NCBI RefSeq assembly: GCF_902498745.1
Contig: NZ_LR701479.1
Location: 376,292-440,291 of the forward strand
Source: Erythrobacter sp. EC-HK427
GTDB taxonomy: Bacteria; Pseudomonadota; Alphaproteobacteria; Sphingomonadales; Sphingomonadaceae
DNA length: 64,000 nucleotides
Direction of reading: 5' to 3'
Both the position numbers and the translations under genes were made by a program. Positions within the stretch are counted from its first letter, which is position 1. Each line of letters opens with the position of its first letter. Positions 13,495 to 41,521 of the stretch are shown here, piece by piece. The notes beneath the pieces were generated by a model that was not told where the DNA came from, made no database searches, and saw only the letters and a list, made by a program, of their open reading frames with translations.

Positions 13495-13629
13495 TCAGGC
13501 CTTCAGCCAGAACCTGATGATCCACGCGACCGTGCCGAGCACAGCCACGCTTCCTGCCCAGATCGCTGCCATCCATGCCAGCTGTCGCCATAAGGGGGCT
13601 TCCGGCTCGTTGTCCTGCGCATGGCGCAT
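13495..13629 (-). CDS. DUF2474 small membrane protein of the bd oxidase operon
   Basis: This is a 44-residue protein with one hydrophobic helix (WMAAIWAGSVAVLGTVAW). Position and sequence match DUF2474 peptides encoded at the end of cyanide-insensitive oxidase operons, which are thought to help assembly or stability of the oxidase, as CydX does. Its ATG overlaps the cydB stop by one base (TAATG), so it is translationally coupled. It is easily missed by gene callers because of its size. Confidence 0.8.
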   Translation of the reverse strand: MRHAQDNEPEAPLWRQLAWMAAIWAGSVAVLGTVAWIIRFWLKA

Positions 13630-14624
13630 TAGTGATACCCCTCGTCACCCACCTTGCCGCGGAACACCCAATAGGCCCAGGCGGTGTAGCCGATGATGAG
13701 CGGCATGGTGATCGCGACGCCCACCAGCATGAATATCTGGCTGCGCTCGGGCGCGGCGGCGTCCCAGATCGTTAGCCCCGGCGGCACCACATAGGGCCAC
13801 ATCGTCACGCCCAGCCCCGCCATGCCGAAGAAGAACAGCGCCAATGCGAGCCAGAAGGGCTTGCTGTTGCGCTCCTTGCGGATCGCGCCGATCATCGACA
13901 GGGCGATAATGCCGGTGAGCACCGGCACCGGCGCAACGAAATAGATCTCGGGTGCGCTCAGCCAGCGGGCGGCATATTCGCTGTTGAGCGTGATGTTGTA
14001 GAGGCTGACCGCGCCCATCAGGGCAATCGTCGCCAGCGCCGCGCGCAGGGCCAGCTTGCGCGCGTGCGCCTGCCCTTCCCCGTCGAGCTTCCAGATCAGC
14101 CAGGTGCTGCCCAGCAGAGCATAGCCTGCCACCGTGCCCAGCCCGCACAACAGCGTGTAAGGCGTGAGCCAATCGAACCAGCTTCCGGCATAGGCGCGGT
14201 CGACCACATCGATCCCCTGTAGCAGCGCGCCCAGCGTCATCCCCTGCGCCATCGCCGCCACCAGCGATCCGCCTGAGAATGCGGCATCCCAGAAACGCCG
14301 ATGCGCCGGATCGCGCCAGCGGTACTCGAAGGCGACTCCGCGGAAAACAAGGCCAAGCAGCATGGCGATAATCAGCGGATAGGTGGCCGGCAGCACCACC
14401 GCATAGGCCAGCGGAAAGGCGGCAAACAACCCGCCGCCGCCCAGCACCAGCCAGGTCTCGTTCCCGTCCCACACAGGCGCGATGGAATTCATCGCCCGAT
14501 CCCTTTCGCGCCCCACTTCGAAGGTAGGGAAGAGAATGCCGATGCCCAGATCGAACCCGTCCATCACCACATAGGCGAACACGGCGAAGGCGATGATGAA
14601 AGCCCAGATGACGGTGAGATCCAT
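13629..14624 (-). CDS. cydB: Cytochrome bd-type ubiquinol oxidase subunit II
   Basis: CydB/CioB is the second membrane subunit of the bd-type quinol oxidase, which reduces O2 to water. The 331-residue product starts with DLTVIWAFIIAFAVFAYVVMDGFDLGIGILFP, shows eight or more hydrophobic helices, and contains MNSIAPVWDGNETWLVLGGG, characteristic of the family. The ATG at 14624 overlaps the cydA stop (TGATG) and has GGAGGA seven bases upstream. Confidence 0.95.
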   Translation of the reverse strand: MDLTVIWAFIIAFAVFAYVVMDGFDLGIGILFPTFEVGRERDRAMNSIAPVWDGNETWLVLGGGGLFAAFPLAYAVVLPATYPLIIAMLLGLVFRGVAFEYRWRDPAHRRFWDAAFSGGSLVAAMAQGMTLGALLQGIDVVDRAYAGSWFDWLTPYTLLCGLGTVAGYALLGSTWLIWKLDGEGQAHARKLALRAALATIALMGAVSLYNITLNSEYAARWLSAPEIYFVAPVPVLTGIIALSMIGAIRKERNSKPFWLALALFFFGMAGLGVTMWPYVVPPGLTIWDAAAPERSQIFMLVGVAITMPLIIGYTAWAYWVFRGKVGDEGYH

Positions 14625-16066
14625 CACACATCCTCCTTTTGCGTAGGCAGGGTTTCGGCATGGCCGGGATTCTGCGTCGGCCCCGGGGTGATCCCGGCGG
14701 TGCGGATCGGCCCGCTATCGCCGCGCTTCGCACCAAGCTCGCCGGTGTGCGGAGGCTTGGCCATCAGGCGCAGGATGTACCACACGCCAATCCCGAACAC
14801 GGTGAAGTAGACGAGGATAAAGGCCAGCAGCGACGCCGCAACCGCGGGCGCATCGAGCGGACTGGCCGCATCGGCGGTGCGCAGCAGGCCGTAAATGACA
14901 TAGGGCTGGCGGCCGACCTCGGTGGTGATCCATCCCGCCAGCACGGCGATAAAGCCCGAAGGTGCCATCAGAACGGCGGCGCGGTGCAGCCATGGCATAT
15001 CATACAGACGCTTGCGGAACCTTCCGTAGAGGCTCCACAGCCCGATCCCCAGCATCGCAAAGCCGATGCCCACCATGATGCGGAACGACCAGAAAACCAT
15101 ACCGACAGGAGGCTCCTCGTCATCGGGAATGGTATCGAGCCCGTCGAGCGGCGCATTCCAGTCATGCTTGAGGATCAGCGAGGAGAGCTTGGGAATTTCG
15201 ATGGCGTAATGCACCGTGCGTTCCTCGCTATCGGGAATACCGAACAGGATCAGCGGCGCGCCATCGGGGTGGCTTTCGAAATGGCCTTCCATCGCCATCA
15301 CCTTGGCGGGCTGGTGCTCCAGCGTGTTGAGGCCATGCATATCGCCGGCAAAGATTTGCAATGGCGTGACAATCGCCGCCATCCACATCGCCATGGAGAA
15401 CATCTTGCGCGCGTGCAGGTTCGCCTTGTCCTTCAGCAAATGCCACGCGCCCACTCCGCCGACGACAAAGGCGGTGGTGAGATAAGCCGCCATCACCGTG
15501 TGCACGAGGCGGTAAGGGAAGCTGGGATTGAAGACGATGTCCCACCAGCTCGGCCCCGGCAGGAACTGGCCGTTGGCGGCAATTTCAAAACCGGTCGGCG
15601 TCTGCATCCAGCTGTTGACCGAAAGGATCCAGAAGGCTGACACAAATGTGCCGAAGGCGACCATGCAAGTGGCAAAAAAGTGCAACTTCTTGCCCACCTT
15701 GTTCATGCCGAACAGCATCACGCCAAGAAAGCCCGCTTCGAGGAAGAAAGCGGTGAGCACTTCATAGGCCATCAGCGGCCCGATCACCGGCCCCGCCACG
15801 TCCGAAAACACCGACCAATTGGTGCCGAACTGGTAACTCATGACGATGCCGGAGACGACGCCCATGGCAAAAGCGATGGCAAAGATCTTGATCCAGTATT
15901 TGAACAGATCGAGATAAAGCTGGTTGCCGGTTTTGAGCCACAGCCCTTCAAGCACCATCAGATAACTCGCCAGCCCAATGGAAAAGGCCGGGAAGAAGAA
16001 ATGGAAGCTGACCGTAAACGCGAACTGGATGCGTGCGAGTAACAGGGCATCGAAGATCTCAAACAT
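14624..16066 (-). CDS. cydA: Cytochrome bd-type (CIO) ubiquinol oxidase subunit I
   Basis: CydA/CioA carries haems b558, b595 and d and oxidises ubiquinol. At 480 residues it has the short quinol loop of the cyanide-insensitive (CIO) class. Visible features are the N-terminal FDALLLARIQFAFTVSFHFF with His22, the GRQPYVIYGLLRT version of the GRQPW motif, and about nine helices. bd oxidases resist sulfide and cyanide, which fits the sulfide genes nearby. There is only a short gap, filled mainly by a hairpin, to the upstream peroxiredoxin gene, so read-through from it is possible. Confidence 0.95.
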   Translation of the reverse strand: MFEIFDALLLARIQFAFTVSFHFFFPAFSIGLASYLMVLEGLWLKTGNQLYLDLFKYWIKIFAIAFAMGVVSGIVMSYQFGTNWSVFSDVAGPVIGPLMAYEVLTAFFLEAGFLGVMLFGMNKVGKKLHFFATCMVAFGTFVSAFWILSVNSWMQTPTGFEIAANGQFLPGPSWWDIVFNPSFPYRLVHTVMAAYLTTAFVVGGVGAWHLLKDKANLHARKMFSMAMWMAAIVTPLQIFAGDMHGLNTLEHQPAKVMAMEGHFESHPDGAPLILFGIPDSEERTVHYAIEIPKLSSLILKHDWNAPLDGLDTIPDDEEPPVGMVFWSFRIMVGIGFAMLGIGLWSLYGRFRKRLYDMPWLHRAAVLMAPSGFIAVLAGWITTEVGRQPYVIYGLLRTADAASPLDAPAVAASLLAFILVYFTVFGIGVWYILRLMAKPPHTGELGAKRGDSGPIRTAGITPGPTQNPGHAETLPTQKEDV

Positions 16067-16104
16067 GGGCCAGCCTCGTCAAAAGGGTTGGGTTGCAAAG
16101 GTTA

Positions 16105-16146
16105 GGATGCGCCCGCCGGGGGGATGGGGGATTGGCGGGCGCATCC
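16105..16146 (-). terminator. Perfect 13-bp hairpin between peroxiredoxin and cydA
   Basis: GGATGCGCCCGCC (16105-16117) and GGCGGGCGCATCC (16134-16146) are perfect inverse complements with a 16-base loop. It lies 10 bases past the peroxiredoxin stop. The T-run beyond it is poor, so it may attenuate rather than end transcription into cydAB, or protect the upstream mRNA. Confidence 0.6.
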
Positions 16147-16155
16147 ATGCGCCTC

Positions 16156-16785
16156 TCAGTCGACCCGAGTAGTGCGCAAATAGGGCTTTATCGTGGTGAA
16201 GCCTTGCGGAAATTTCGCCTTGGCATCTTCGTCAGAGACCGAAGGCGGAATGATGACCTCGTCACCCGGGCGCCAGTTGGCGGGCGTTGCAATCCCGGCG
16301 CGGTCGCCGGTTTGCAGACTGTCGATCACGCGCAAAATTTCGTCGAAATTGCGCCCGACGCTCATCGGATAGGTCATGATAAGCCGGATCTTGTCGGCAG
16401 GATCGATGATGAAGACCGATCGCACCGCAGCGGTCTCGCTCTGGTCCGGGTGGATCATGTCATACAGTTTCGCGATTTCCAGATCGGGATCGGCGACAAT
16501 CGGGAATTGCAGCGTGACACCCTGCGTTTCATCGACGTCCTTCACCCATTCAAGATGCTCTTCCACCGTGTCGGTCGAAAGACCGAGCGGCTTACAATTG
16601 CGCCTTTCGAACTCGGCAGCGAGCTTGGCGGTCATGCCCATTTCGGTGGTGCAAACCGGAGTGAAATCAGCCGGGTGGCTGAAGAAGAAAACCCAGCTGT
16701 CTCCCGACCATTCGTGGAGCGTGATCTCCCCGGTGGTGGTGGCAACGGTGAAGTTGGGGGCGGTATCGCCGATATGTAGTGACAT
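16156..16785 (-). CDS. Prx6-type peroxiredoxin
   Basis: This 209-residue thiol peroxidase reduces H2O2, organic peroxides or peroxynitrite. The peroxidatic Cys45 is in FTPVCTTEMG, preceded by FSHPADFTP; the long C-terminal extension and NWRPGDEVIIPP are typical of the 1-Cys Prx6 group. GGAAA lies upstream of the ATG at 16785. A motif upstream (16846-16857) is identical to one in the divergent promoter of the persulfide operon at 22.26 kb, where a second peroxiredoxin is encoded. Confidence 0.92.
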   Translation of the reverse strand: MSLHIGDTAPNFTVATTTGEITLHEWSGDSWVFFFSHPADFTPVCTTEMGMTAKLAAEFERRNCKPLGLSTDTVEEHLEWVKDVDETQGVTLQFPIVADPDLEIAKLYDMIHPDQSETAAVRSVFIIDPADKIRLIMTYPMSVGRNFDEILRVIDSLQTGDRAGIATPANWRPGDEVIIPPSVSDEDAKAKFPQGFTTIKPYLRTTRVD

Positions 16786-16845
16786 GATGTTTTCCTTTCG
16801 CAGCCGGGATAGCTGCCCGCCCCGATTCGCGCAATTTCAATATAT

Positions 16846-16857
16846 CACTTTATGTAA
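16846..16857 (-). promoter_or_regulatory. Shared operator-like motif upstream of peroxiredoxin/cydAB
   Basis: On the minus strand this reads TTACATAAAGTG, followed by ATATATTGAAA. The same 12 bases occur at 22260-22271. It lies in an AT-rich stretch about 60 bases before the peroxiredoxin start. A role as operator for the locally encoded ArsR protein is inference. Confidence 0.55.
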
Positions 16858-17016
16858 TCGATTTTTTATTTCGGTCATTAGAGGCAAAATATCAGCGTAA
16901 ATTGGCCAAAATCATAGCTGGACTTAGGGCTTAATTTCAATTGTCTGCAAGTGTTTGCGCTCTGCGCGCGCCGGGATGCCGCGCTGTGACGGTCTGCCGG
17001 CGAAAAACTTACGCCC

Positions 17017-18774
17017 TCAGATCAGCCCGCGCGCCATGTAGTGGTCCACCGCTTCGGGCGGCTCGCCTGTGTCGAGCGAAACCTCGGCAAAGGCGCGGTC
17101 TTGCGAGAGGAAGACTTTGCCGTTCAGCTCCTCCACGAAATGGGTGCGTTGCAGGCGGTCCATCACCGGGCCTTTGACTTCGGAGAGGTGCAGCCCGATG
17201 CCGCCATCGCCCAGCCGATGGTTGATCGCTTCGAGGCTTTCGAGCCCCGATGCGTCCACTTCGTTCACCGCGCTGCACATGAGGATCACATGGCGCACGG
17301 CGGGACGGTCGGCGACTTGCTCCAGCACATATTCCTCCAGCCAGCGGGCGTTGAGATAGGTCAGCGCCTCGTCAATCCGGATCGATAGGACGTGCGGGAC
17401 GGTAATCACCGCGTGCCGTTCGACATTGCGGAAATGCTCGGTTTCGGGAACGCGCCCGACAATCGCCGCGTGCGGGCGGCTGGCGCGCCAGAGATAGAGC
17501 AGCAGGCCAACCGCCACCCCGGCGATCACGCCCAGCTCCACGCCTGCCAGCAGGGTGATGCCGATGGTCGCCATATGCGCGGCGAAATCCGCCTTGGAAT
17601 AGCGCCACAGCCGCCCCGGCGTCTTGAGGTCGACCAGGCTCAGCACCGCCACGATGATCGTCGCGGCCAATGTCGCAATCGGCAGGCTGTAGAGCAGCGG
17701 GGTAAGGAACAGCGTGGCGAGCGCGATCCCGACAGCGGTGTAGGCTCCGGCGGCAGGCGTCTGCGCGCCCGCGTCGAAATTCACCGCCGAACGGGCAAAG
17801 CCGCCGGTCACCGGATAGCCACCCGAAAACGCGCTGGCGATGTTCGCCGCGCCCAATCCGATCAGCTCCTGATCGGGCGCAATGCGCTGGCGGCGCTTGG
17901 CGGCGAGCGTTTGCGCGACCGAGACGCTTTCGACAAAGCCGATGATAGAGATGAGCAGCGCGGGCACCCACAGCTTTTCGATCAGCGACAAGTCGGTGCT
18001 GGGCATGGCGAAAGGCGGCAGACCCTGAGGGATCGCGCCGACGAGGCTGACGCCCCTCTCCTCCAGTCCGAAAGCCTCCACGGCAAGGATCGTCAGCGCC
18101 ACGGCCACGACCGGCCCAGCCTTGGCGGTCATTTCGGCAGCGCGTTCCTTCAGGCCGAGCTTTTGCAGCGCGGGCTTGCCGCCCTTGCGCACCCAGAACA
18201 GGAACAGCGTGGCAGGAACGCCGATGGCGAGCGTCACCGGATTGGTGTCGCCAATCGTGCTGGCGAGCGAGCCGAGCATGGCGGGCCAATTGTCGCCGCC
18301 CGCCTGGATGCCGAGAATATGCTTCACCTGGCTCGTCGCAATCAGCACGCCTGATGCGGTGATGAAGCCGCTGATGACGGGGTGCGAGAGGAGGTTGGCG
18401 AGGAACCCTGCCCGCAGCAGGCCGAGCACCGCCAGCATCACGCCCGACAGCATCGCCAGCGTGATCGCCGCTTCGAGATATTCCGCCGTCCCCTGCGCCG
18501 CGACCGCACCCGCTGCCGAAGCGGTCATCAGCGAAATCACCGCCACCGGCCCGACCGCAAGCGTGCGGCTGGTGCCGAAAATGGCATAGGCAAACAGCGG
18601 CACGATCGAGGCGTAGAGCCCGACCACCGGCGGCAATCCCGCCAACAGCGCATAGGCGAGGCTTTGCGGAATGAGCATGATGGTGACGATCACCGCCGCC
18701 ATCAGATCGTCGGTCAGGACGCCGCGATTATACGTCCGGCCCCAGTCGAGTATCGGGAGGTAGCGGGAGAGCAC
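17017..18774 (-). CDS. SulP family anion transporter with STAS domain
   Basis: SulP proteins move sulfate, bicarbonate or other anions across the inner membrane. The 585-residue product has the family start (DDLMAAVIVTIMLIPQSLAYALLAGLPPVVGLYASI, positions 23-58), about 12 hydrophobic helices and a C-terminal cytoplasmic STAS domain (about residues 440-560, with EVDASGLESLEAIN). It is the last gene of the sulfide oxidation operon, 16 bases after the quinone oxidoreductase. Export of sulfite or sulfate formed by sulfide oxidation is a reasonable guess from context, but the substrate is not shown by sequence. Confidence 0.9.
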   Translation of the reverse strand: MLSRYLPILDWGRTYNRGVLTDDLMAAVIVTIMLIPQSLAYALLAGLPPVVGLYASIVPLFAYAIFGTSRTLAVGPVAVISLMTASAAGAVAAQGTAEYLEAAITLAMLSGVMLAVLGLLRAGFLANLLSHPVISGFITASGVLIATSQVKHILGIQAGGDNWPAMLGSLASTIGDTNPVTLAIGVPATLFLFWVRKGGKPALQKLGLKERAAEMTAKAGPVVAVALTILAVEAFGLEERGVSLVGAIPQGLPPFAMPSTDLSLIEKLWVPALLISIIGFVESVSVAQTLAAKRRQRIAPDQELIGLGAANIASAFSGGYPVTGGFARSAVNFDAGAQTPAAGAYTAVGIALATLFLTPLLYSLPIATLAATIIVAVLSLVDLKTPGRLWRYSKADFAAHMATIGITLLAGVELGVIAGVAVGLLLYLWRASRPHAAIVGRVPETEHFRNVERHAVITVPHVLSIRIDEALTYLNARWLEEYVLEQVADRPAVRHVILMCSAVNEVDASGLESLEAINHRLGDGGIGLHLSEVKGPVMDRLQRTHFVEELNGKVFLSQDRAFAEVSLDTGEPPEAVDHYMARGLI

Positions 18775-18790
18775 GGTTGAGAATCCTCTC

Positions 18791-20014
18791 TTACTGCGCG
18801 ATCAGGCCGCCGGGGCCTGCCAGCCATTCGCGGCCTTTGAGCATCCCGTTCCAGTAAATCCACGGCAGGGCGTCGGCCTTCAACATCCATGACAGGCGCT
18901 GCGGCTTGGTGCCATCGATAATCCATTCGGGGAAACTCGGCATCAGCTTGCCGCCATAGCCGAATTCGGCGAGCACAATCTTGCCGCGCTCCACCGTCAG
19001 CGGGCACGAACCGTAGCCGTCATAGCCTGCGCGCGGTCCGCGTCCGTCCAGCTGTTGCAGCAGGTTCACGGCGACCACCGGTGCCTGCTTGCGCACGGCA
19101 GCGGCGGTCTTTGCATTGGGCATGGAGCCGCCATCACCCAGTCCGAAGACATTGGGATAGCGGACGTGCTGCAACGTATGCTGGTCAACATCGGTGAAGC
19201 CGCTTTCGGAAGCCAGCGGACTGTCGGCCAGGAATTGCGGCGCCACCTGCGGCGGAACGACGTGGAGCATATCGAAACTGCGGGTAATTTCGCCCGCCTC
19301 GGTCTGGAACACCGCCTGCCGCGCGGGGCCGTCCACCGCGACCAGCGTGTTGCCGAGCTGAAGATTGATGCCGTATTTCTCGACATAGGTCATCAGCGCA
19401 GGCACGTAATCGGCCACCCCGAACAGCACGCCGCCGGCATTGCAGAAATCGACTTCGATCTTGTCCAGCACGCCGGAACGGTTCCAGTGGTCGCAGGAAA
19501 GATACATCGCCTTTTGTGGCGCGCCTGCGCATTTGATCGGCATGGGCGGCTGGGTGAAAATCGCGCGGCCCGATCTGACCGCCTGCACCAGTTCCCACGT
19601 ATAGGGCGCCAGATCATAGCGGTAGTTGGAGGTGACGCCGTTCTCGCCCAGCGTCTCTTCCAGTCCGGCGATCTTTTCCCAAGCCAGCCGGATTCCGGGC
19701 GCGACGACCAGCGCCTTGTAGGTCAGCACCGATCCGTCTTCCAGCGTCACACCGTTGGTGTCGGGCGCGAAGCTCTTGGCGGCAGCCTTGATCCATTTCA
19801 CCCCGTGGGGGATCACACTCGCCATCGTGCGACGCGTTATCTCCGGTTCGAAAATGCCGCCGCCAACCATCGTCCAGCCGGGTTGATAGGCGTGCATATC
19901 GGCCGGATCGACAATCGCAATGTCGAGGGTTTTGCGGCGCTTGAGCAGCGAGGCGGCAGTGGCAATCCCGGCAGCACCGCCGCCGATAATCACCACGTCA
20001 TGGGATGCGTGCAT
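18791..20014 (-). CDS. sqr: Sulfide:quinone oxidoreductase, type II (SQOR-like)
   Basis: SQR is a membrane-associated flavoenzyme that oxidises sulfide to sulfane sulfur and reduces quinone. The 407-residue protein has the FAD-binding VVIIGGGAAGIATA at residues 7-20. The key cysteines of the eukaryotic-like type II class are present: Cys162 in IKCAGAPQKAMYL and Cys337 in YDGYGSCPLTV, equivalent to the catalytic pair of human SQOR. Further cysteines are at 174 and 191. It belongs to a minus-strand operon with a TIGR01244 protein, two YeeE/YedE proteins and an ETHE1-like dioxygenase, which together give a complete sulfide-to-sulfite route. Confidence 0.92.
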   Translation of the reverse strand: MHASHDVVIIGGGAAGIATAASLLKRRKTLDIAIVDPADMHAYQPGWTMVGGGIFEPEITRRTMASVIPHGVKWIKAAAKSFAPDTNGVTLEDGSVLTYKALVVAPGIRLAWEKIAGLEETLGENGVTSNYRYDLAPYTWELVQAVRSGRAIFTQPPMPIKCAGAPQKAMYLSCDHWNRSGVLDKIEVDFCNAGGVLFGVADYVPALMTYVEKYGINLQLGNTLVAVDGPARQAVFQTEAGEITRSFDMLHVVPPQVAPQFLADSPLASESGFTDVDQHTLQHVRYPNVFGLGDGGSMPNAKTAAAVRKQAPVVAVNLLQQLDGRGPRAGYDGYGSCPLTVERGKIVLAEFGYGGKLMPSFPEWIIDGTKPQRLSWMLKADALPWIYWNGMLKGREWLAGPGGLIAQ

Positions 20015-20036
20015 TGTGGTTCCCCTCTCCGGGATG

Positions 20037-20447
20037 TCAGGCGAGTGCGTCCCGCCATGGTGTCAAATCGTATCCGGCAGCCTCCGCCCGGTGCAGGCGC
20101 TCTTCGACCGACAAGCCGTCAGGATTGGCCAGCGTATCGAGCGTGATCGAGCGCGTACCGGTGCGGCAGAAAGCGAGCACGGGGCCGTCCGCGCCTTGCC
20201 GCGCGGTGCGGAAGGCGGCGATAGCATCATCGCTGAAAGCGCCGCCCGCAACGGGGATATGATGGAACACCAGACCCGCCGCATCGGCAGCCGATTGCAG
20301 CTCCGCCACGGGAGGCTGGCCGGCCTCCTCGCCATCGGGGCGATTGCAGATCAGCGCGGTAAAGCCGAGCGCCTTGATCGCAGCCATGTCGGACGGAGCG
20401 ATTTGCGGCGCGACCGCGAAATCGGCGGAGACTGTGCGGATGTCCAT
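20037..20447 (-). CDS. TIGR01244 family (DUF442) sulfurtransferase/phosphatase-like protein
   Basis: This 136-residue protein has the dual-specificity-phosphatase-like fold of DUF442, the same domain fused to the N-terminus of the beta-lactamase-like hydrolase (Blh) in other bacteria. The active-site loop is FCRTGTRS (Cys-x5-Arg). In Blh this domain is linked to sulfur transfer in sulfide detoxification. Its ATG overlaps the upstream stop by one base (TGATG). Here the domain is separate from the dioxygenase, which is encoded three genes upstream. Confidence 0.85.
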   Translation of the reverse strand: MDIRTVSADFAVAPQIAPSDMAAIKALGFTALICNRPDGEEAGQPPVAELQSAADAAGLVFHHIPVAGGAFSDDAIAAFRTARQGADGPVLAFCRTGTRSITLDTLANPDGLSVEERLHRAEAAGYDLTPWRDALA

Positions 20448-20866
20448 CACGCGTCCTTTTCCACCAGGCGAACCAGCAGCATTCCTGCGAGCATAGCGGC
20501 CACGAAAATCGCTGCCGAGACCGGCTCGATCACCAGCGCAGTGATCGCCGGCCCCGGGCACAGGCCGGCAACACCCCAGCCGATCCCGAACAGCGCCGAT
20601 CCGCCGATCAGCTTGGGCGTCAGATCGCTGCGGTCGGGGATGGCGAATTTCAGGCCGAAGAGCGGCTGCGCCATGCGCGGCTGGATGCGCCAGGCAATCG
20701 CCATCACCAACACCGCACCGCCCATGACGAAGGCGAGCGTCGGATCCCAATTGCCGAACAGGTCAAGGAAGCCGCGCACGCGCGCCGGATCGGTCATCCC
20801 GCCCAGCGCAAGGCCCGCGCCGAACAGCCCGCCCGAAAGCAGCGGGGGAAGATATTGCTTCATCAT
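20447..20866 (-). CDS. YeeE/YedE family half-transporter (second)
   Basis: This 139-residue membrane protein has four hydrophobic segments and the GLCPGPA motif of YeeE/YedE proteins, which in other bacteria import thiosulfate or handle sulfur compounds. It starts at the ATG at 20866, overlapping the previous stop by four bases (ATGA). With the preceding gene it makes a complete two-part YeeE/YedE unit, as is usual in sulfide detoxification operons. Confidence 0.88.
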
Positions 20867-21312
20867 GGCAGCACCTCGATGCCTGCGGCATTCATCACCG
20901 CGACGGTGGCGATCCCGGTCGCCATGAACGTGAGCGTGGCGACAAGCGAGCGCGCCGACAGGCGGCTCACCCCGCACACGCCGTGGCCGCTGGTGCAGCC
21001 GCTGCCCAGCCGCGTGCCGATGCCGACCAGCAGGCCCGCAATGGCGAGCACGAGCGGGCTGGCGAAATCTGCCTCCAGCTCACCGCCCAGCATGGCAACG
21101 ACCACAGCGCCGAGCGGCAGGCCGATGAGGAACATCCACGCGCTGGAAAGCGACATTCCGCTGTTGCTGTTGCCGGTCGCGCGGGCGGCGATGCCGGAAA
21201 CACCGGCAATCCGTCCCGCGCCGAGCAGCATCAGCGCAGCCGCGCCGCCAATCAGCACACCGCCCGCCAACCCTGCAAGCGGAGCCGCGTCAGGAAATCC
21301 GGGGAGCATCAT
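20863..21312 (-). CDS. YeeE/YedE family half-transporter (first)
   Basis: This 149-residue membrane protein carries [12 protein letters not shown], the cysteine motif of YeeE/YedE transporters, with four or five hydrophobic helices. The conserved cysteines are thought to relay sulfur through the pore. The ATG at 21312 overlaps the stop of the dioxygenase gene by four bases. Together with the next gene it probably moves sulfur-containing anions across the inner membrane. Confidence 0.9.
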
Positions 21313-22241
21313 ACGGCGTTCACCGGAATCTTGATGTAGCTGATGCCGTTATCCTCGGGCTCGGGCAGATGCCCGCCGCGGATATTCACCTGCACCGAAG
21401 GCATGATGAGCGTCGGCATGGCCAAAGTCGCGTCGCGCGCGGTGCGCATCGCAACAAATTCGTCCTCGCTCACCCCGTCGCGCACATGGACATTGCCTTC
21501 GCGCTGCGCCTTGACCGTGGTTTCCCACGCATAGGTGTCGCGGCCGGGCGCCTTGTAATCGTGACACATGAACAGCCGCGTATCGTCCGGCAATTCGAGC
21601 AGACGGTGGATCGAGCGGAAAAGCTGGCGCGCGTCACCGCCGGGGAAATCGGCGCGTGCCGTGCCGTAATCGGGCATGAACATCGTATCGCCAACAAAGG
21701 CGGCATCGCCGATGATGAAGGCCATATCGGCAGGCGTATGGCCGGGCACGTGCAGGGCAATGCCTTCGATCGCACCAATGCGGAACGTATCGCCGTCGCC
21801 GAACAGGTGATCGAATTGCGAGCCGTCGCGTTCGAACTCGGTGCCGGCGTTGAACAATTTGCCGAACACTTCCTGCACCCGCACGATCTGCGCCCCGATG
21901 GCCAGATTGCCACCGAGCTTTTCCTGCAGATAGGGCGCTGCTGACAGGTGATCGGCATGGGCGTGCGTCTCGATCAGCCAAGTCACTTTCAGATTATTCG
22001 AAGTAACATAAGCAATGATCGCATCCGCCGAAGCGTGCGAGGTGCGGCCCGCTGCCGGTTCGTAATCGAGCACCGAGTCGATAATCGCCGCCTCCAGCGT
22101 CGCCGGATCGTGCACGACGTAGCTGACAGTAAAGGTCGCCTCGTCAAAAAACGCTTCAACAACGGGGCGTAGCGCGGGATCACCCATAGCGCGCGCAACC
22201 TGCTGCGACGCGGCTTCGAGCATAGAATCACCTTCAATCAT
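21309..22241 (-). CDS. ETHE1-like persulfide dioxygenase (MBL fold)
   Basis: Persulfide dioxygenases oxidise glutathione persulfide to sulfite using iron and O2. The 310-residue protein has the metallo-beta-lactamase motif THAHADH (residues 92-98), the second histidine in HVPGHTPAD, the aspartate in [14 protein letters not shown] and the last histidine in FMCHDY, as in the ETHE1/Blh group. It is the first gene of the six-gene sulfide operon. The ATG at 22241 has GGAG upstream. The promoter region is shared with the divergent peroxiredoxin-arsR pair. Confidence 0.92.
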
Positions 22242-35521: not shown

Positions 35522-36520
35522 TTACGCCGAGCAGCTTGCTCCGCCCAGCACGCAGAAGCGCGCGCAATGCGGGTGGTTGAGCATCACCTCGCGGTCGGCC
35601 TCCGCCACGGTGCCGCCCATGTCGAATTGCGGGTCATACGGCAGCAGCGTGCAGGCGACGACGCGCGCGGTGTCCTCCCCCTTGCGGTGGACGACCATGC
35701 GGCTGCTCGCGCACATCTGCGCATCGGGCGAAGTGCCGAGAATGTCCCAGCAGGCGGTGGTGATTTCGGGCACATCCGCCTTGGCGTCCATCTCCGGAAA
35801 AAGCACCAGTTGCGCGGGGTTCGCGGTGTCGATGGCGATCCCTTCTCGCTTGAACAAAGCGCCATAGGCCAACCGCGCCTGCTCCTGCGTTTCGCCCGCG
35901 AGCGAGCGCCCGGCGGCGGCGATGGAGAAGCCGTTTGCCGAGAGCCAGCGCAAGCCCTCCAGCATTGGCGTCCAGCTGTTCGGCCCGCGCTCTGCCTCGT
36001 GAAAGGCTTGCGTGTAATGGTCGATACTCACGCGGATCGTCAGCGCCTCGCCATAGGCCTCGCGCAGCCGCAGCAGCGCCGCCTCGTGCCGCCGCATCGG
36101 CTTCAACGCATTGCTCAGGACAAGCACATCAAAGCCCCGCTTCACAGCATCCTCGACCATCGCAATGATGTCCGGATTCATAAACGGCTCGCCACCGGTG
36201 AAGCCGATTTCGCGGGGGCGCAAACGTGGTGGCCCGGCATCCACTTCGTCAAGGAAACGGGAAACTTCGTCAGCCGAAAGGTATACTAGCGCGTCATTGG
36301 TCGGGCTGCTCTCGATATAGCAATTGGCGCAGGCGAGATTGCACAGCGTGCCGGTGGCGAACCACAGCGTCTCCATCTGCCGCAAAGCGACGCTGGCGCG
36401 CGGCTCTCCCTTGGCGGTGACGAAGGGATCGGCGAATTTCTCGCGCGCCAAGGGCTGCGCTGCCACGGCGAAGGGGGATGCGCCAGCGGGCGCGTTGCGG
36501 GACAGGGAACGGGTAGCCAT
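35522..36520 (-). CDS. Radical SAM protein of the arsM cluster (SPASM-like C-terminus)
   Basis: Radical SAM enzymes use a [4Fe-4S] cluster and S-adenosylmethionine to create radicals. The 332-residue protein has C60-x3-C64-x2-C67 in TLCNLACANCYIE, the GFTGGEPF SAM-binding motif, and extra cysteines near the C-terminus (C319, C323, C330 in HCARFCVLGGASCS) that could hold an auxiliary cluster. It is not the ArsS type known from arsenosugar clusters, whose CxxxCxxC context differs. The ATG at 36520 overlaps the stop of the disulfide oxidoreductase gene (TGATG). Context suggests a C-As or sugar-arsenic step, by inference only. Confidence 0.8.
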   Translation of the reverse strand: MATRSLSRNAPAGASPFAVAAQPLAREKFADPFVTAKGEPRASVALRQMETLWFATGTLCNLACANCYIESSPTNDALVYLSADEVSRFLDEVDAGPPRLRPREIGFTGGEPFMNPDIIAMVEDAVKRGFDVLVLSNALKPMRRHEAALLRLREAYGEALTIRVSIDHYTQAFHEAERGPNSWTPMLEGLRWLSANGFSIAAAGRSLAGETQEQARLAYGALFKREGIAIDTANPAQLVLFPEMDAKADVPEITTACWDILGTSPDAQMCASSRMVVHRKGEDTARVVACTLLPYDPQFDMGGTVAEADREVMLNHPHCARFCVLGGASCSA

Positions 36521-37938
36521 CAGAACATCCGGCGGATTTTCGCCAGAAAAGCAACCCAGCGTTTGGGCCATTTGCCGAACACGGTCGGCTCCCACGCCTT
36601 GAACGCGGCGGCCTTGGTGATTTCCGAGCGGGTGGGATAGGCGATGATCGCCCCGCCCACATCGAACGTGCCCGCTTTGCCGGTAATCATCTGGCTGAAC
36701 GGCAGCAGCAATTCCCCCGCATTCGGCCCACAAATGCTCGCGCCGACGACCGACTTGCCTTTCAGCATCACTTTCAAATGCCCTTCGGTATCCCCTTCAG
36801 CGATGGCGCGTTCATTGTGGTCGAAGCCTTCCTTCACCACGGTGAGCGCGTCGCCATATTTCGCCCGCGCCTCCGCTTCGGTCAGGCCGATCTGCGCGAC
36901 TTCGGGCTCGGTATAGGTGCACCAGGGCAGCGCGCGGTAATCGACCTTGCTCGGCAGGCCGAGCGCGATTTCGAGCACCACGCGGCTGCCTTCATAGCCC
37001 GAAACGTGCGTCAGGCGCGGCCCGTCGCGGCAGTCGCCGATAGCGTAGATATGCTTCAGATTGGTGCGGCGGCGTTCGTCCACGATGATGCCGCCCCGGC
37101 CCGTTTTGACGCCAATCTCTTCCAGCCCGTAATCGGTGATGCGCGGGGAGCGTCCCACGGCGACGAGCAGATGCGATCCGGCGATCTCTACTCCGCCATC
37201 CACGGTAACAACCACGCCGCCATCAGCCGTTTGCGCGACCTTTTCCGCCTTGCCTTTGACAAAGCGCACGCCCTCGCGCGTCATCCGGTCCACCACCAGC
37301 GCCACCGATTCCGGATCGTCCCGCCCCATCGGCGTGCCCGGCTCGATCACGGTAACTTGGCTGCCCAAGCGGCAGAAGCTCTGCGCCATTTCCATGCCGA
37401 TCACCCCGCCGCCGATAATGGCGAGTTGTTCGGGCTGCTCCGCCAGATCGAAGATATTCTCGTTGGTGAGATAAGGCACATCACCGATGCCGGGGATCGG
37501 CGGCACAAACGGCCCGCTGCCCGTGGCGATCACTATGCGTGGCGCGGTGAGCGTGCGCCCGCCGACTTCGACCGAATGCCGCCCGGTAAACTTCGCCCAA
37601 TCCTGAATGACCTCGCAGCCCATCCCCTCAAACGTCTCGACCGAATCATGCGGGGCGATATCGGCGATCGCCTTGTGCACATGGGCGTGGACCCCACCCC
37701 ATTCGATCACCGGCGCGGCCAACTGCACCCCTGCGCGCTTCTCCTCGCGGGCTTCAGCAGCGCGGCGGGCGCTGGCGATCAGCGCCTTTGACGGCACGCA
37801 GCCATTATTGAGGCACTCGCCGCCCATCTTGTGGCCTTCAATCAGCGCCACTTTCAGCCCGAACAGCGCGCAGCCGCCGCCTGCGGTCAGCCCCGCGGCA
37901 CCGCCGCCGATTACGATAACATCATGCGTATATTCCAT
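36520..37938 (-). CDS. MerA/Lpd-like FAD disulfide oxidoreductase
   Basis: This 472-residue flavoprotein belongs to the pyridine nucleotide-disulfide oxidoreductases: VIVIGGGAAGLTAG (FAD), redox pair C42 and C47 in GGECLNNGCVPSK, an NAD(P) site IIGGGVIGMEMAQ, and GDCRDGPRLTH. The C-terminal catalytic His of lipoamide dehydrogenase is replaced (IAYPTRSE), as in MerA-like proteins, but the C-terminal vicinal cysteines of true mercuric reductase are missing. So the substrate is unlikely to be mercury. It lies upstream of the radical SAM gene and is divergent from arsM. Confidence 0.82.
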   Translation of the reverse strand: MEYTHDVIVIGGGAAGLTAGGGCALFGLKVALIEGHKMGGECLNNGCVPSKALIASARRAAEAREEKRAGVQLAAPVIEWGGVHAHVHKAIADIAPHDSVETFEGMGCEVIQDWAKFTGRHSVEVGGRTLTAPRIVIATGSGPFVPPIPGIGDVPYLTNENIFDLAEQPEQLAIIGGGVIGMEMAQSFCRLGSQVTVIEPGTPMGRDDPESVALVVDRMTREGVRFVKGKAEKVAQTADGGVVVTVDGGVEIAGSHLLVAVGRSPRITDYGLEEIGVKTGRGGIIVDERRRTNLKHIYAIGDCRDGPRLTHVSGYEGSRVVLEIALGLPSKVDYRALPWCTYTEPEVAQIGLTEAEARAKYGDALTVVKEGFDHNERAIAEGDTEGHLKVMLKGKSVVGASICGPNAGELLLPFSQMITGKAGTFDVGGAIIAYPTRSEITKAAAFKAWEPTVFGKWPKRWVAFLAKIRRMF

Positions 37939-38028
37939 GGTCGTTCCCCACGTAACTTAGTCTTGCTGGGAAACGAAACGCTTCCTGTCTATGGCCAGCA
38001 CATTCGCAGTGAAGGGACGAACAGTTTC

Positions 38029-39078
38029 ATGAATCTCCAGAATTCCCAGAATTATTACGGCAAGGTGCTGGGGGGATCATCCGATCTGCGCACCGATGCC
38101 TGCTGCACCTTCGAAATGCCCGGAGACGCGGTGCGCAAGGCGCTGAAGAACGTGCATGAGGAGGTGAAGGCCCGCTATTACGGCTGCGGGCTGGTGGTGC
38201 CGCAGGCGCTGGAGGGGTGCCGCGTGCTCGATCTGGGATCGGGCAGCGGGCAGGATGCCTATCTGCTGGCGCAACTGGTCGGCCCGAATGGCAGCGTGAT
38301 GGGTGTGGACGCGACGCCCGAACAGCTGGCCGTCGCGCGCGAATACCAGGAATGGCACGCCGAACGCTTCGGCTTTGCCAATGTCCAATTCGTCGAAGGC
38401 GATATCGAGAAGCTGGGCGAACTTGGCCTGGAAGAGGGCAGCTTCGACGTCATCGTCTCCAACTGCGTCATCAATCTGGTGGCGGACAAGGAAGCCGTGT
38501 TCCGCGCCGCCCACAAGCTGCTGAAACCCGGCGGGGAACTGTATTTCTCCGACGTCTATGCCGACCGCCGCGTGCCCGCACACCTGCTGAGCGACCCCGT
38601 GCTGCATGGCGAGTGCCTGTCGGGCGCGCTCTATTGGGGCGATTTTGAGCGGATCGCCAAGGCCGCCGGATTCGCCGATCCGCGCCTCGTCACCGACCGG
38701 CCGATGGGCATCAACGATGCGGAAATCGCCGCCAAGCTGGACGGGATCAACTTTGTCTCCGCCACCTATCGCCTGTTCAAGCTGGCGGGGCTGGAACCGC
38801 AATGCGAAGATTACGGGCAGGCGGTCCGCTACAAGGGCAGCGTGCCGGGCGAAGAACGGATGTTCCTCCTCGATGCGCATCATGCCATCGAGAAAGGGCG
38901 GATCTTCCCCGTTTGCGGCAATAGCTGGCTGATGCTGGCGGAAACGCGGTTTGCGGAGCATTTCGAGTTTATCGGCGATTTCGCGCATCATTACGGCGTG
39001 TTCCCCGGCTGCGGCACGGCGGTGCCGTTCGGCCAATCGGACGCGAATCCCACGAAATCTGACGCGCCCTGCTGCTGA
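38029..39078 (+). CDS. arsM: Arsenite S-adenosylmethionine methyltransferase ArsM
   Basis: ArsM methylates arsenite to mono-, di- and trimethylated forms. The 349-residue protein has the SAM motif VLDLGSGSGQDAYLLA (residues 66-81), an N-terminal FEMPG region with C25-C26, and the two cysteines that bind arsenic in the family, C146 (SNCVINL) and C196 (GECLSGALYW). The product ends with CC. The start is the ATG at 38029. The one-base overlap of its stop with the next gene couples it to the SDR protein. It is divergent from the oxidoreductase/radical SAM pair, with 90 bases between. Confidence 0.93.
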   Translation: MNLQNSQNYYGKVLGGSSDLRTDACCTFEMPGDAVRKALKNVHEEVKARYYGCGLVVPQALEGCRVLDLGSGSGQDAYLLAQLVGPNGSVMGVDATPEQLAVAREYQEWHAERFGFANVQFVEGDIEKLGELGLEEGSFDVIVSNCVINLVADKEAVFRAAHKLLKPGGELYFSDVYADRRVPAHLLSDPVLHGECLSGALYWGDFERIAKAAGFADPRLVTDRPMGINDAEIAAKLDGINFVSATYRLFKLAGLEPQCEDYGQAVRYKGSVPGEERMFLLDAHHAIEKGRIFPVCGNSWLMLAETRFAEHFEFIGDFAHHYGVFPGCGTAVPFGQSDANPTKSDAPCC

Positions 39079-40088
39079 TGCGGGTGCTGGTGACGGGAGC
39101 CGCCGGGCTGATCGGCGGCGAAGTATGCGCGCGGCTGGCAGCGCGTGGGCACGCGGTCGCGGGACTGGTGCGGCGCAATCCGGAAATTCGCGGCAATGAT
39201 GGTGCGCTGGTGGACGGCGCGCGGGCGCTGGCGGGCGATGTTACGCAGCCGCTGATGGGGCTGGCGGCGGAACCGTTCGATCTGGTGATCCACTGCGCCG
39301 CCAGCCTTGAATTCGACGCGCCCGAGGAAGAACTGCGCGCAGTGAATGTGGAGGGCACACGCAACGCGCTGGCCTTCGCCGCAGCAGCAGGCGCGGGCTT
39401 TCTCCATGTCAGCACAGCCTATGTCTGCGGCGCGCGCGATGGGGTGATTGCCGAGGGGCCGGTGCCCGAAGGCACGGCGTTCACCAATCGTTACGAAGCG
39501 AGCAAGGCGGAGGGCGAGGCGGTCGTCGCGGCAAGCGGCGTGCCCTTCGCCATTGCCCGCCCCTCGATCGTGCTGGGAGACAGCGCGAGCGGCGAAATCC
39601 GCGACTTCCCCTCGCTCTGCAATGTCTTCCGCCTGATGGCGCGCGGCAAGGTGACGCAATTTCCCTGCGTGCCTGGATCAACGCTGGATCTGGTGCCGCT
39701 CGACCATGTGGCGGCGGGAATCGTCGTGCTCGCGGAGAGGTTTGAACAGGCGCAGGGCGGCTATTTCCACGTCGTCGCGCGTGATGCCCTGCCAGCTGCG
39801 GCGCTGGCGCATGGGGTGCAGCGCGTGGCGCATTTCCCCGATCCGGCGGTGGTCGCGCCGGAGGATTACGACATGGAAGCGCTATCCCCCGCCGAGCGGC
39901 TGCTGGCCGGGCGGATGCTGGCGACGTTCGGCGCGTATTTCACCCGCTCGCCGGAGTTTGACGATGCGAAGTTTCGCGGCGTGACGGGGCTGGAATGCCC
40001 GGCGACAGAGGACGCATGGCTCGACCGGTTGATCGCTTACGGGATTGCGCGGGGGTATTTGCCGGGGCCCACCACCCGTTCGTCCTGA
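39078..40088 (+). CDS. Extended SDR (NAD(P)-dependent epimerase/reductase) coupled to arsM
   Basis: This 336-residue Rossmann-fold protein begins VLVTGAAGLIGGEVCARLAARG (residues 3-24), has the HVSTAYVCG segment and the active-site YEASKAEGE (Tyr-x3-Lys). It belongs to extended SDRs, which reduce, dehydrate or epimerise sugars or reduce thioesters. It directly follows arsM. The last residues and the stop codon lie inside a repeat element (40075 onwards), so the C-terminus has been shaped by the repeat. Its role in arsenic chemistry is inferred from position. Confidence 0.75.
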   Translation: MRVLVTGAAGLIGGEVCARLAARGHAVAGLVRRNPEIRGNDGALVDGARALAGDVTQPLMGLAAEPFDLVIHCAASLEFDAPEEELRAVNVEGTRNALAFAAAAGAGFLHVSTAYVCGARDGVIAEGPVPEGTAFTNRYEASKAEGEAVVAASGVPFAIARPSIVLGDSASGEIRDFPSLCNVFRLMARGKVTQFPCVPGSTLDLVPLDHVAAGIVVLAERFEQAQGGYFHVVARDALPAAALAHGVQRVAHFPDPAVVAPEDYDMEALSPAERLLAGRMLATFGAYFTRSPEFDDAKFRGVTGLECPATEDAWLDRLIAYGIARGYLPGPTTRSS

Positions 40089-40172
40089 GCCTGTCGAAGG
40101 ACTGCTTTTCTTCTGACTAGCGCCAAGTTTCGAAAGGAAAGTGCAGCCCTTCGACAAGCTCAGGGTGAGCGG
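40075..40172. repeat. Inverted repeat element over the 3' end of the SDR gene
   Basis: The left arm (40075-40104) and the right arm (40144-40172) are inverted copies with about five differences; cores are CTGAGCCTGTCGAAGG and CCTTCGACAAGCTCAGG. The type is common in sphingomonad genomes. It lies between two convergent genes and may end transcription from both sides. Confidence 0.75.
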
Positions 40173-40190
40173 ATGTGGGTTAGGATAAGC

Positions 40191-40221
40191 TACTGCCTAA
40201 TGCCTACTGCCTACTGCCTAC
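40191..40221. repeat. Short tandem repeat at glycosyltransferase 3' end
   Basis: A unit close to TGCCTACT is repeated about four times. The stop codon of the glycosyltransferase (40218-40220) lies within it. Such short arrays may vary in copy number by slippage. Confidence 0.6.
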
Positions 40222-40940
40222 CGCACATCCGGATAATACCGCTCCAGCCGCTCCCGCGCGCCCAGTCCCCACAGGAACCCCACCTTCAGGTAAATCCAGT
40301 TCGCCTTCAGCGCCCCCCATTCGGCAATGCGCCTGTCCGAGGTTTCGATAAAACGCGGCACCAGTTTCACCCGGCCAAAGCGGGTCAGGCGGATGCAGAG
40401 GTCGGCCTCTTCCATCACCTTGGCCTCGGGATCGCAGCCACCGCATTCGAGAAATTGCGCGCGGCGGAAGAACATCGCGTGGTCGCCGAAGAGGAGGCGG
40501 CATCCTTTGACGAACAGCAACGGGCGGAAGAGCAGCGGCGCGTAATAGGTCTTTGCCCAATTGTGCAGCGTGGTACCCCAGCGCGTTTTCTCCGGCCCGC
40601 GCAGGATCGGAGTGAACCCCGCGAGCGAAATGGCCGGGTTCGATAGCGTCTCTTCGATCACCGCGACCATATCAGCAGGCGGGACGGTATCGGCGTGGAG
40701 CACGACCACATTTGCGCCCTTTGCTGCTTCGGCCCCCGCATTAATCTGCCGCCCGCGCCCTGCCGGCGTTTCGATAACCCGCCAGCCAGCCTCGCGCGCC
40801 AGATCGACCGAACGGTCTGCGCTCCCACCATCGACAGCCACCACTTCCAGCGGCGGCGGATCGAGCGCGGCGATGTGGCGGATCAGCGCGGGCAGTGCCT
40901 TTGCTTCGTTGAGCATGGGGATGACGATGCTCGTGCTCAT
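40218..40940 (-). CDS. TIGR04283-like glycosyltransferase, arsenosugar type
   Basis: This 240-residue family 2 glycosyltransferase starts SIVIPMLNEAKALPALI, has the donor-binding VVAVDGGSADRS and the metal-binding HADTVPP, with FLECGGCDPEAKVMEEADL later, a pattern I associate with TIGR04283 (arsenosugar cluster glycosyltransferases). It may attach a sugar to an arsenical or lipid precursor. The ATG at 40940 overlaps the stop of the other glycosyltransferase by four bases. The cluster role is inferred from the nearby arsM. Confidence 0.78.
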   Translation of the reverse strand: MSTSIVIPMLNEAKALPALIRHIAALDPPPLEVVAVDGGSADRSVDLAREAGWRVIETPAGRGRQINAGAEAAKGANVVVLHADTVPPADMVAVIEETLSNPAISLAGFTPILRGPEKTRWGTTLHNWAKTYYAPLLFRPLLFVKGCRLLFGDHAMFFRRAQFLECGGCDPEAKVMEEADLCIRLTRFGRVKLVPRFIETSDRRIAEWGALKANWIYLKVGFLWGLGARERLERYYPDVR

Positions 40941-41521
40941 CGCAGAAGCTCCGGCCATTTGGCCAGGTCTTCGGGCCGGTCGCAATCATCGAGTGTTTGA
41001 AGCAGACGATAAGAGATGCCGCGCGCTTCCAGCCGCGCTTCGGTCAACGCGCGCACCTGTTCTGTGCCCCATGGCATATCGTCGAAAAGAAACGGCACAG
41101 GATCACGAAAGCCGAGCAGATAGTATCCGCCATCGCTCGCAGGGCCGATCACCACCGGCACTTCCTCCAGCGCTTTCGCCGCTGCCAGCAAGTGCTCCGC
41201 CGTCACATCGGGAATATCCGCGCCCAGCAAAATCGCCGGAGCAGGCACCCGCGCAAGCCTTGCCCCAAGGTCGCCCTCGCCTTGCGCGATCATCGGCACA
41301 TCCTCGCCCGGCCACTGCGCGAAGGCGGCGTGCTCTTCGCCCGTCGTCCACACCGCGAACGGCAAGCCCGACGCGCGCATCGTCGACAGCGTCCGCTCCA
41401 CCAGCAGCCGGTGCAATTCCGCTGCACCTTCTGCCCCCAGCGCGGGGATCAGCCGGGTCTTCGCTTTGCCCGCGACAGGGTATCGGGCGAAGAGGGCAAT
41501 CGTGGGGAGCGGGTTGGCCAT
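40937..41521 (-). CDS. TIGR04282-like glycosyltransferase/nucleotidyltransferase, arsenosugar type
   Basis: This 194-residue protein has the GT-A-like pattern of TIGR04282: ALFARYPVAGKAKTRLIPAL (a CofC/nucleotidyltransferase-like basic loop), ILLGADIPDVTAEHL and VVIGPASDGGYYLLG. It is found paired with TIGR04283 proteins in arsenosugar gene clusters. GGGAG lies upstream of the ATG at 41521. It starts a two-gene operon. Enzymatic substrate not established by sequence. Confidence 0.8.
   Translation of the reverse strand: MANPLPTIALFARYPVAGKAKTRLIPALGAEGAAELHRLLVERTLSTMRASGLPFAVWTTGEEHAAFAQWPGEDVPMIAQGEGDLGARLARVPAPAILLGADIPDVTAEHLLAAAKALEEVPVVIGPASDGGYYLLGFRDPVPFLFDDMPWGTEQVRALTEARLEARGISYRLLQTLDDCDRPEDLAKWPELLR

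Follow-up and report, generated by a model that had tools for sequence, protein, structure and literature searches.

How arsenosugars arise in marine and soil environments has long been asked. A locus that bears on this is found in Erythrobacter sp. EC-HK427, where six genes lie at positions 35522-41521 of a 64,000-nucleotide stretch of contig NZ_LR701479.1 (hereafter the window, whose numbering is used throughout). The genes encode the arsenite methyltransferase ArsM, a short-chain dehydrogenase/reductase (SDR) protein, a MerA-like oxidoreductase, a radical S-adenosylmethionine (SAM) protein, and transferases of the TIGR04282 and TIGR04283 types. The radical SAM enzyme ArsS is described as the partner of ArsM in making arsenosugars (PMC8552651) and as adenosylating arsenic (PMC12159101); the passages concerned name no other enzyme for arsenic adenosylation. 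Does the radical SAM protein of the window, which the first-pass annotation of this DNA had found unlike ArsS, take the place of ArsS? Judging from gene context, from which the reactions are inferred, we lean towards an arsenosugar-type pathway in which a radical SAM protein of another family, here termed rSAM-A, acts in place of ArsS.

Gene content of the cluster

The six genes were found together in three back-to-back units, as the first-pass annotation had described, with the strand order (- -)(+ +)(- -) in the open reading frames of the window sequence:

35522..36520, minus strand: radical SAM protein rSAM-A, 332 aa; PF04055; CNLACANC motif (C60/C64/C67); C-terminal cysteines 257, 270, 290, 319, 323 and 330
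36520..37938, minus strand: MerA-like FAD/NAD(P) disulfide oxidoreductase; redox pair CLNNGC (C42/C47)
38029..39078, plus strand: ArsM, arsenite SAM methyltransferase, 349 aa; YYGCG (C53), SNC (C146), GEC (C196) and a CC end
39078..40088, plus strand: extended SDR protein, NAD-binding, epimerase/thioester-reductase-like by profile matches
40218..40940, minus strand: glycosyltransferase family 2 (GT2) protein, TIGR04283-type; 174.6 bits, cut-off 182
40937..41521, minus strand: TIGR04282/DUF2064 (CofC-like) transferase; 182.6 bits, cut-off 134

Start codons were corrected for the genes of the radical SAM protein (ATG 36520), ArsM (ATG 38029) and the TIGR04283-type protein (ATG 40940). The coupling reported earlier for the SDR gene and arsM, which overlap by TGATG at 39076-39080, is a property of all three gene pairs: the stop of the MerA-like gene overlaps the start of the rSAM-A gene (TGATG at 36522-36518), and the TIGR04282 and TIGR04283 genes overlap by ATGA at 40940-40937. 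The TIGR04282 protein passes its curated cut-off, and the TIGR04283-type protein remains just under its own with a full-length match. For ArsM, the best NCBIfam model is NF008823 (172.2 bits, 1.5e-50, under the cut-off of 263); its arsenic-binding cysteines C53, C146 and C196 lie in motifs typical of ArsM. The description of the oxidoreductase as MerA-like holds, since it matches TIGR02053 with 307.8 bits; this score is under the MerA cut-off of 454.45, by which mercuric reductase itself was ruled out, and inspection of the sequence found no C-terminal CC. The arrangement of the six genes exceeds chance, as it recurs in relatives and the radical SAM gene tracks TIGR04282 across genomes.

Assignment of the radical SAM protein

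By profile, the window protein is a member of an unnamed radical SAM family and not ArsS, in agreement with the first-pass annotation. It reaches 52.5 bits against the ArsS model TIGR04167, over residues 47-204 only and with a cut-off of 300, and 81.5 bits against the Rv1681 model NF049973 (residues 50-228; cut-off 380). Rv1681 is thus its best-scoring named family and ArsS the second-best NCBIfam match, and the protein is under the cut-off for every NCBIfam model among the 25 matches listed. ArsS under another name was ruled out by this score together with DUF3641 (PF12345), which is present in the ArsS of locus L173 and was not reported for the window protein in a Pfam search at E <= 0.01; Pfam profiles likewise did not detect the ArsS C-terminal domain in the window protein or in its relative from locus L118. 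All 61 aligned rSAM-A members match both the ArsS and the Rv1681 models (best E for ArsS, 1.8e-22).

The CNLACANC motif supplies the CxxxCxxC core of ArsS-type radical SAM proteins (C60, C64 and C67; PF04055), and these residues are invariant in the 61 sequences along with C270, C290, C319 and C323; for C257 and C330 conservation is 90% or higher. The cysteines of the motif and of the cysteine-rich end noticed at first reading are features of the family, with all six tail cysteines at least 90% conserved; the SPASM-like label for this end found no support in Pfam, which reported PF04055 and PF13353 only, at E <= 0.01, and no SPASM domain. The AlphaFold2 model of the protein (predicted local distance difference test score, 92.1) has as its nearest folds in the PDB BlsE and maturases of ribosomally synthesized and post-translationally modified peptides (RiPPs), with SuiB among the matches, at a moderate template modelling score of about 0.5. 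Profile alignment (hhalign) of rSAM-A with four ArsS sequences gave 2e-12 and 26% identity over 176 columns of the radical SAM core; of three control radical SAM proteins, two gave 3e-8 over 82-85 columns and the third was not significant. Homology of the C-terminal regions was also considered, for the tails are similar (HC..C..G.(A/S)SC); the C-terminal thirds of the two families gave no significant hhalign alignment, and because of this the likeness of the tails is not counted as evidence.

A sister branch, class B, occurs in three genomes (G071, G080 and G197; loci L059, L060 and L178). It is homologous to rSAM-A over nearly its full length (hhalign 1e-57 over 290 columns) and also sits within a group of TIGR04282, TIGR04283, ArsM and radical SAM genes; it differs in sequence, with 35-38% identity to rSAM-A for L059 and L060 and 37% for G197, the motif CNLAC(P/D)FCLEG and the tail HRCYSCFAYG(A/S)SC.

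Co-occurrence with TIGR04282

The distribution of the genes was analyzed in two samples, comprising 99 relatives (order sample) and 289 alphaproteobacterial genomes (class sample); in these tallies class B is counted together with rSAM-A, jointly termed rSAM. In the order sample, rSAM is present in 61 genomes (59 A, 2 B) and TIGR04282 in 63, with both in 60 and neither in 35; the sole genome with rSAM and without TIGR04282 (G092) is 64% complete. Similarly, 89 genomes of the class sample have rSAM (88 A, 1 B), 115 have TIGR04282 and 86 have both (odds ratio 169). The p-values of such comparisons overstate independence because the samples consist of related genomes, and a better guide is the family-level tally together with parallel absences within the order. 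By family labels, 45 of 46 rSAM families also possess TIGR04282 and 15 further families possess TIGR04282 alone; the corresponding Fisher test assumes a total of 133 families, a number read from the labels. G016, a genome of the window's genus that is 99% complete, is without rSAM, ArsM and TIGR04282 together. The co-occurrence holds even when the two genes are unlinked. TIGR04283 exceeds its cut-off in nine of the 99 relatives, and its low-score matches include general GT2 proteins, so it was excluded from the co-occurrence evidence. ArsS over the cut-off was found in none of the 99 relatives and in two of the 289 Alphaproteobacteria, and both of the latter have TIGR04282 and no rSAM-A.

Gene neighborhoods of rSAM-A and of ArsS

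The synteny check confirmed that the arrangement recurs in relatives: among 20 order-level loci, all six genes are present in six, only ArsM is missing in one, and class B accompanies TIGR04282, TIGR04283 and ArsM in two. We further compared 80 loci chosen by rSAM similarity alone, in which the counts of neighbors are lower bounds because loci are cut at contig ends; they contain TIGR04282 in at least 30, TIGR04283 in at least 32, ArsM in at least 12 (plus one divergent), MerA-like genes in at least 23 and 5'-methylthioadenosine (MTA) phosphorylase in at least 10. With 23 sphingomonad-like loci set aside, the remaining 57 contain these genes in at least 11, 12, one (plus one divergent), four and four loci, respectively. 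The linkage of rSAM-A to cluster genes is thus repeated in unrelated families. In five of the 80 loci the gene after rSAM-A encodes a metallophosphoesterase, and in two more loci a metallophosphoesterase domain and rSAM-A are joined, in this order, in a single open frame (L155:1754-3574 and L162:9128-10957; 606 and 609 residues), a predicted fusion that ties both functions together.

The ArsS loci used for comparison (L175, L205 and L208) have in common with rSAM-A loci TIGR04282, TIGR04283, MTA phosphorylase, metallophosphoesterase, and a VTT protein with an FAD oxidoreductase (VTT-flavoprotein), which is found near both kinds of radical SAM gene. Three rarer partners are likewise shared: a PhnD/E-type transporter (one ArsS and one rSAM-A locus), a radical SAM protein of 459-465 aa with DUF547 (two ArsS loci and one rSAM-A locus), and a 339-aa protein (one ArsS locus and two rSAM-A loci, L128 and L134, where its homologues adjoin rSAM-A). 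For example, the ArsS locus L175 of genome G110 contains TIGR04282, a fused VTT-flavoprotein, ArsS, MTA phosphorylase, TIGR04283, metallophosphoesterase and PhnD/PhnE-type genes; that of Burkholderia glumae contains TIGR04282, TIGR04283, MTA phosphorylase, arsS, the 339-aa protein and the radical SAM gene with DUF547; and that of Cupriavidus (L208) contains ArsS, the flavoprotein, VTT, both transferases, MTA phosphorylase and the radical SAM gene with DUF547. On a Roseomonas plasmid, TIGR04282 and DUF547 with its radical SAM gene are followed by rSAM-A, PhnDEC-type genes and metallophosphoesterase.

Phylogenetic trees were built for two of these partners. One clade (100/100) unites six MTA phosphorylases, of which four belong to rSAM-A loci and two to ArsS loci, apart from the other twelve. 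In the midpoint-rooted tree of transferase pairs, the pairs of two ArsS loci occupy two separate places among pairs from rSAM-A genomes; only two ArsS loci are included, the third (L205) having an incomplete TIGR04282 gene. This tree covers 57 of 72 loci, the 15 dropped being mostly near-copies and also L074, from a genome without rSAM-A, and its label 'rA' denotes a genome that has rSAM-A, not linkage. Because rSAM-A loci share these neighbors with ArsS loci, rSAM-A looks like an ArsS stand-in. The genes held in common favor a product of the same kind, probably made via a different radical SAM enzyme, although the different product envisaged by the first-pass annotation, another arsenosugar or an arsenolipid, may still be formed. 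The first-pass annotation was supported insofar as genes found around ArsS elsewhere also surround the rSAM-A family.

Several observations concern individual neighbors. In the 1.2-Mb genome G181, matches to TIGR04283 and TIGR04282 lie in a single 441-aa open frame (L188:5762-7087), likely a fusion of both transferases, and the end of the rSAM-A gene coincides with the start of a VTT-domain gene (PF09335), the two being encoded on the minus strand (L187:5586-7171). Genome G348 has a 439-aa frame that carries a TIGR04282 match. A match on a Marinobacter plasmid has no annotated gene beneath it.

ArsM and the conserved core

In the order sample, each of the 50 genomes that carry a close ArsM (E <= 1e-40) also has rSAM, and the 38 rSAM-negative genomes contain no ArsM of this kind. 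A divergent ArsM, partial in one case, is found in another five rSAM genomes; the search for divergent ArsM in seven of the 38 rSAM-negative genomes gave one weak match, an ArsR-fused methyltransferase. Beyond the window's order, L146, L176 and L177 have ArsM in the vicinity of rSAM-A, and a single stretch of L146 contains rSAM-A, an ArsC-like reductase, TIGR04282, TIGR04283, MTA phosphorylase, ArsM and a MerA-like gene. In two genomes of the order sample rSAM-A is located elsewhere, and ArsM adjoins the two transferases (L075, G064) or lies about 3 kb from the transferase pair (L078, G076). In nine others with unlinked rSAM (L061, L064-L071), the separate TIGR04282/TIGR04283 pair does not adjoin any relative of the window's ArsM. 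The cluster had been described as centred on ArsM, and this part of the description has to be revised: ArsM is present in 28 of the 89 rSAM genomes of the class sample, and the conserved core is rSAM with TIGR04282 (and TIGR04283), not ArsM.

ArsM-like matches with one in-frame TGA were seen in G262, G274, G176, G333, G260 and G339; these genes are possibly selenoproteins.

Proposed pathway

From the observed gene content, conservation, co-occurrence and shared neighbors, we infer the following candidate reactions for rSAM-A, the two transferases, the SDR protein and the MerA-like protein. The MerA-like flavoprotein would keep arsenic or cellular thiols reduced, and ArsM would methylate arsenite to a trivalent methylarsenical. 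The most likely role of rSAM-A in this context is the addition of 5'-deoxyadenosyl to methylated arsenic, in which it would cleave SAM and add the 5'-deoxyadenosyl radical to the arsenic atom of the methylarsenical, giving 5'-arsino-adenosine. A phosphorylase of the MTA phosphorylase type, encoded beside rSAM-A in other genomes, would remove adenine; MTA phosphorylase removes adenine from 5'-modified adenosine and therefore fits a 5'-deoxyadenosyl adduct. The TIGR04282 and TIGR04283 proteins would activate and attach the aglycone, and the SDR protein may tailor the sugar or the aglycone. The shared pathway likely acts on methylated arsenic that is either made by ArsM or taken up. The primary papers behind ArsS and arsenic adenosylation are reportedly Xue 2019 and Cheng 2021.

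More tentatively, and with slightly less than even confidence, we propose that an unrecognised radical SAM family performs carbon-arsenic adenosylation in place of ArsS, so that ArsS-based annotation greatly understates how common the capacity for arsenosugars is among bacteria, including capacity that needs no ArsM and draws on environmental dimethylarsenic. Many bacteria could, as the cluster suggests, use a route to arsenic sugars that is missed by current annotation. A second family with ArsS partners and a wider spread in Alphaproteobacteria (89/289 versus 2/289 for ArsS) would give a concrete enzyme to test and, if it is an ArsS stand-in, a marker gene for metagenomes; rSAM genomes lacking ArsM would separate arsenosugars from imported dimethylarsenic from something else.

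Points against the proposed pathway and alternative explanations

Several results weigh against an rSAM-A pathway to arsenosugars. The likeness of rSAM-A to ArsS is, on sequence comparison, confined to the radical SAM core, and its best named family is Rv1681. In the class sample, 27 of the 29 TIGR04282 genomes without rSAM are also without ArsS; these may have yet another radical SAM enzyme as partner. MTA phosphorylase was not found within the window, and that of the B. glumae ArsS locus falls outside the shared clade, among the other twelve. No ArsM was found in six of the 61 rSAM genomes of the order sample, the search for divergent ArsM included, or, by two models, in 61 of the 89 rSAM genomes of the class sample. 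Finally, in 11 of the 20 order-level loci rSAM-A has neither ArsM nor the two transferases nearby.

The last count would suit chance neighbors: a radical SAM/SPASM enzyme with a housekeeping or peptide-modifying role would have come to lie beside ArsM in Erythrobacteraceae by accident. Nine of the 11 unlinked genes have neighbors of the metZ/apaG/folE type (six) or the GDPD type (three), as named from one member per group, and RiPP maturases are among the structural neighbors. The co-occurrence with TIGR04282 even when unlinked, and the linkage repeated in unrelated families, speak against chance neighbors, which we consider improbable.

The scarcity of ArsM bears on the main rival, a non-arsenic product in genomes without ArsM. 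The core of rSAM-A, TIGR04282 and TIGR04283 (with the phosphorylase) would make a non-arsenic nucleoside-derived product in most bacteria, and ArsM, the MerA-like protein and the SDR protein would have joined only in some lineages, or arsenic would be one of several substrates. Besides the 61 genomes without ArsM, this explanation draws on the small genomes G181 and G348 (1.2-1.3 Mb), where no ArsM was found and rSAM-A and TIGR04282 are kept, and on a phosphonate-type ABC transporter, encoded next to rSAM-A in L206 and not far from ArsS in L175, which makes a phosphorus substrate conceivable. Clear ArsM is also missing in 84 of the 115 TIGR04282 genomes of the class sample, so the caveat attached to the first-pass annotation, that the transferases may be widespread without ArsM, applies in part. 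On the other hand, ArsM occurs in 35 of the 289 genomes, and 28 of these 35 have rSAM versus 89 of 289 overall; ArsM is near rSAM-A in L146, L176 and L177, with the ArsC-like gene in the first. Moreover, neither canonical ArsS genome of the class sample yielded an ArsM by the two models, and therefore a missing ArsM alone is no argument against arsenic; imported dimethylarsinate could serve as the substrate. Taken with these points, a non-arsenic product appears rather unlikely, though a serious contender.

The ArsM counts follow several conventions. In the class sample, the two models agree after dropping five matches taken as generic methyltransferases (G101, G151, G179, G229 and G256), none of them matched by the second model. 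In the order sample, G068 and G074 are counted as ArsM-less since their weak matches are ArsR-fused methyltransferases, and G041 and G066, with weak matches of 58 bits, were left in the same count. Among loci with TIGR04282 and without rSAM or ArsS, a pattern search of L193 and L194 gave one radical-SAM-like gene each, perhaps unrelated to rSAM.

Comparison with known systems

The ArsS pathway (TIGR04167, DUF3641; Synechocystis ArsM/ArsS) resembles the rSAM-A loci in the radical SAM core, TIGR04282, TIGR04283, MTA phosphorylase, VTT-flavoprotein, metallophosphoesterase and PhnD-type transporter, and differs in that rSAM-A matches the ArsS model over the core only, far below its cut-off, has no reported DUF3641 and carries six conserved tail cysteines. 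The Rv1681 family is the best-scoring named one, but rSAM-A is far under its cut-off. The arsinothricin cluster arsQML likewise combines ArsM with a radical SAM enzyme, as described in the accessible part of PMC8552651, which mentions no phosphorylase or transferases for arsQML; a difference is that the window ArsM scores 142 on the arsinothricin ArsM model, with a cut-off of 500. By analogy with ArsL in arsinothricin synthesis, rSAM-A might form a different carbon-arsenic bond, for example with another SAM-derived group, and give a new organoarsenical that is not an arsenosugar. The lack of a detectable ArsS C-terminal domain in the window and L118 proteins and the family's own six-cysteine tail would agree with this, but a 5'-deoxyadenosyl intermediate is indicated by what the loci have in common with those of ArsS, namely the MTA phosphorylase clade and the two transferases, and we consider a different bond improbable. 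Among the matches listed in the open-access literature, subscription papers being outside this scope, no title links the rSAM-A family to arsenosugars; the accessible parts of PMC12608789, PMC11237643 and PMC8801600 contain nothing on mechanism.

Other features of the window

The six-gene cluster has ppx and rlmE as its neighbors at one end, and genes of the DUF2147 and LOG types at the opposite end. Two noncoding or overlapping features were recorded within it:

37939..38028, no strand: intergenic region separating the divergent MerA-like and arsM genes; 12-sequence alignment
40084..40164, no strand: two exact CCTTCGACARGCTCAGG repeats in inverted orientation, where the SDR and TIGR04283 genes converge with their 3' ends

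No clear palindromic operator was seen by eye in the alignment of 12 sequences of the intergenic region. The two exact inverted copies at 40084-40164 compare with 0.02 expected, and the pair may be a terminator or a dispersed repeat. Elsewhere in the window, a minus-strand gene run at 13629-22241 contains, as judged by eye, genes for cytochrome bd oxidase, a peroxiredoxin, a SulP-type transporter, a sulfide:quinone-reductase-like flavoprotein and YeeE/MBL-fold proteins, and is perhaps devoted to sulfide handling.

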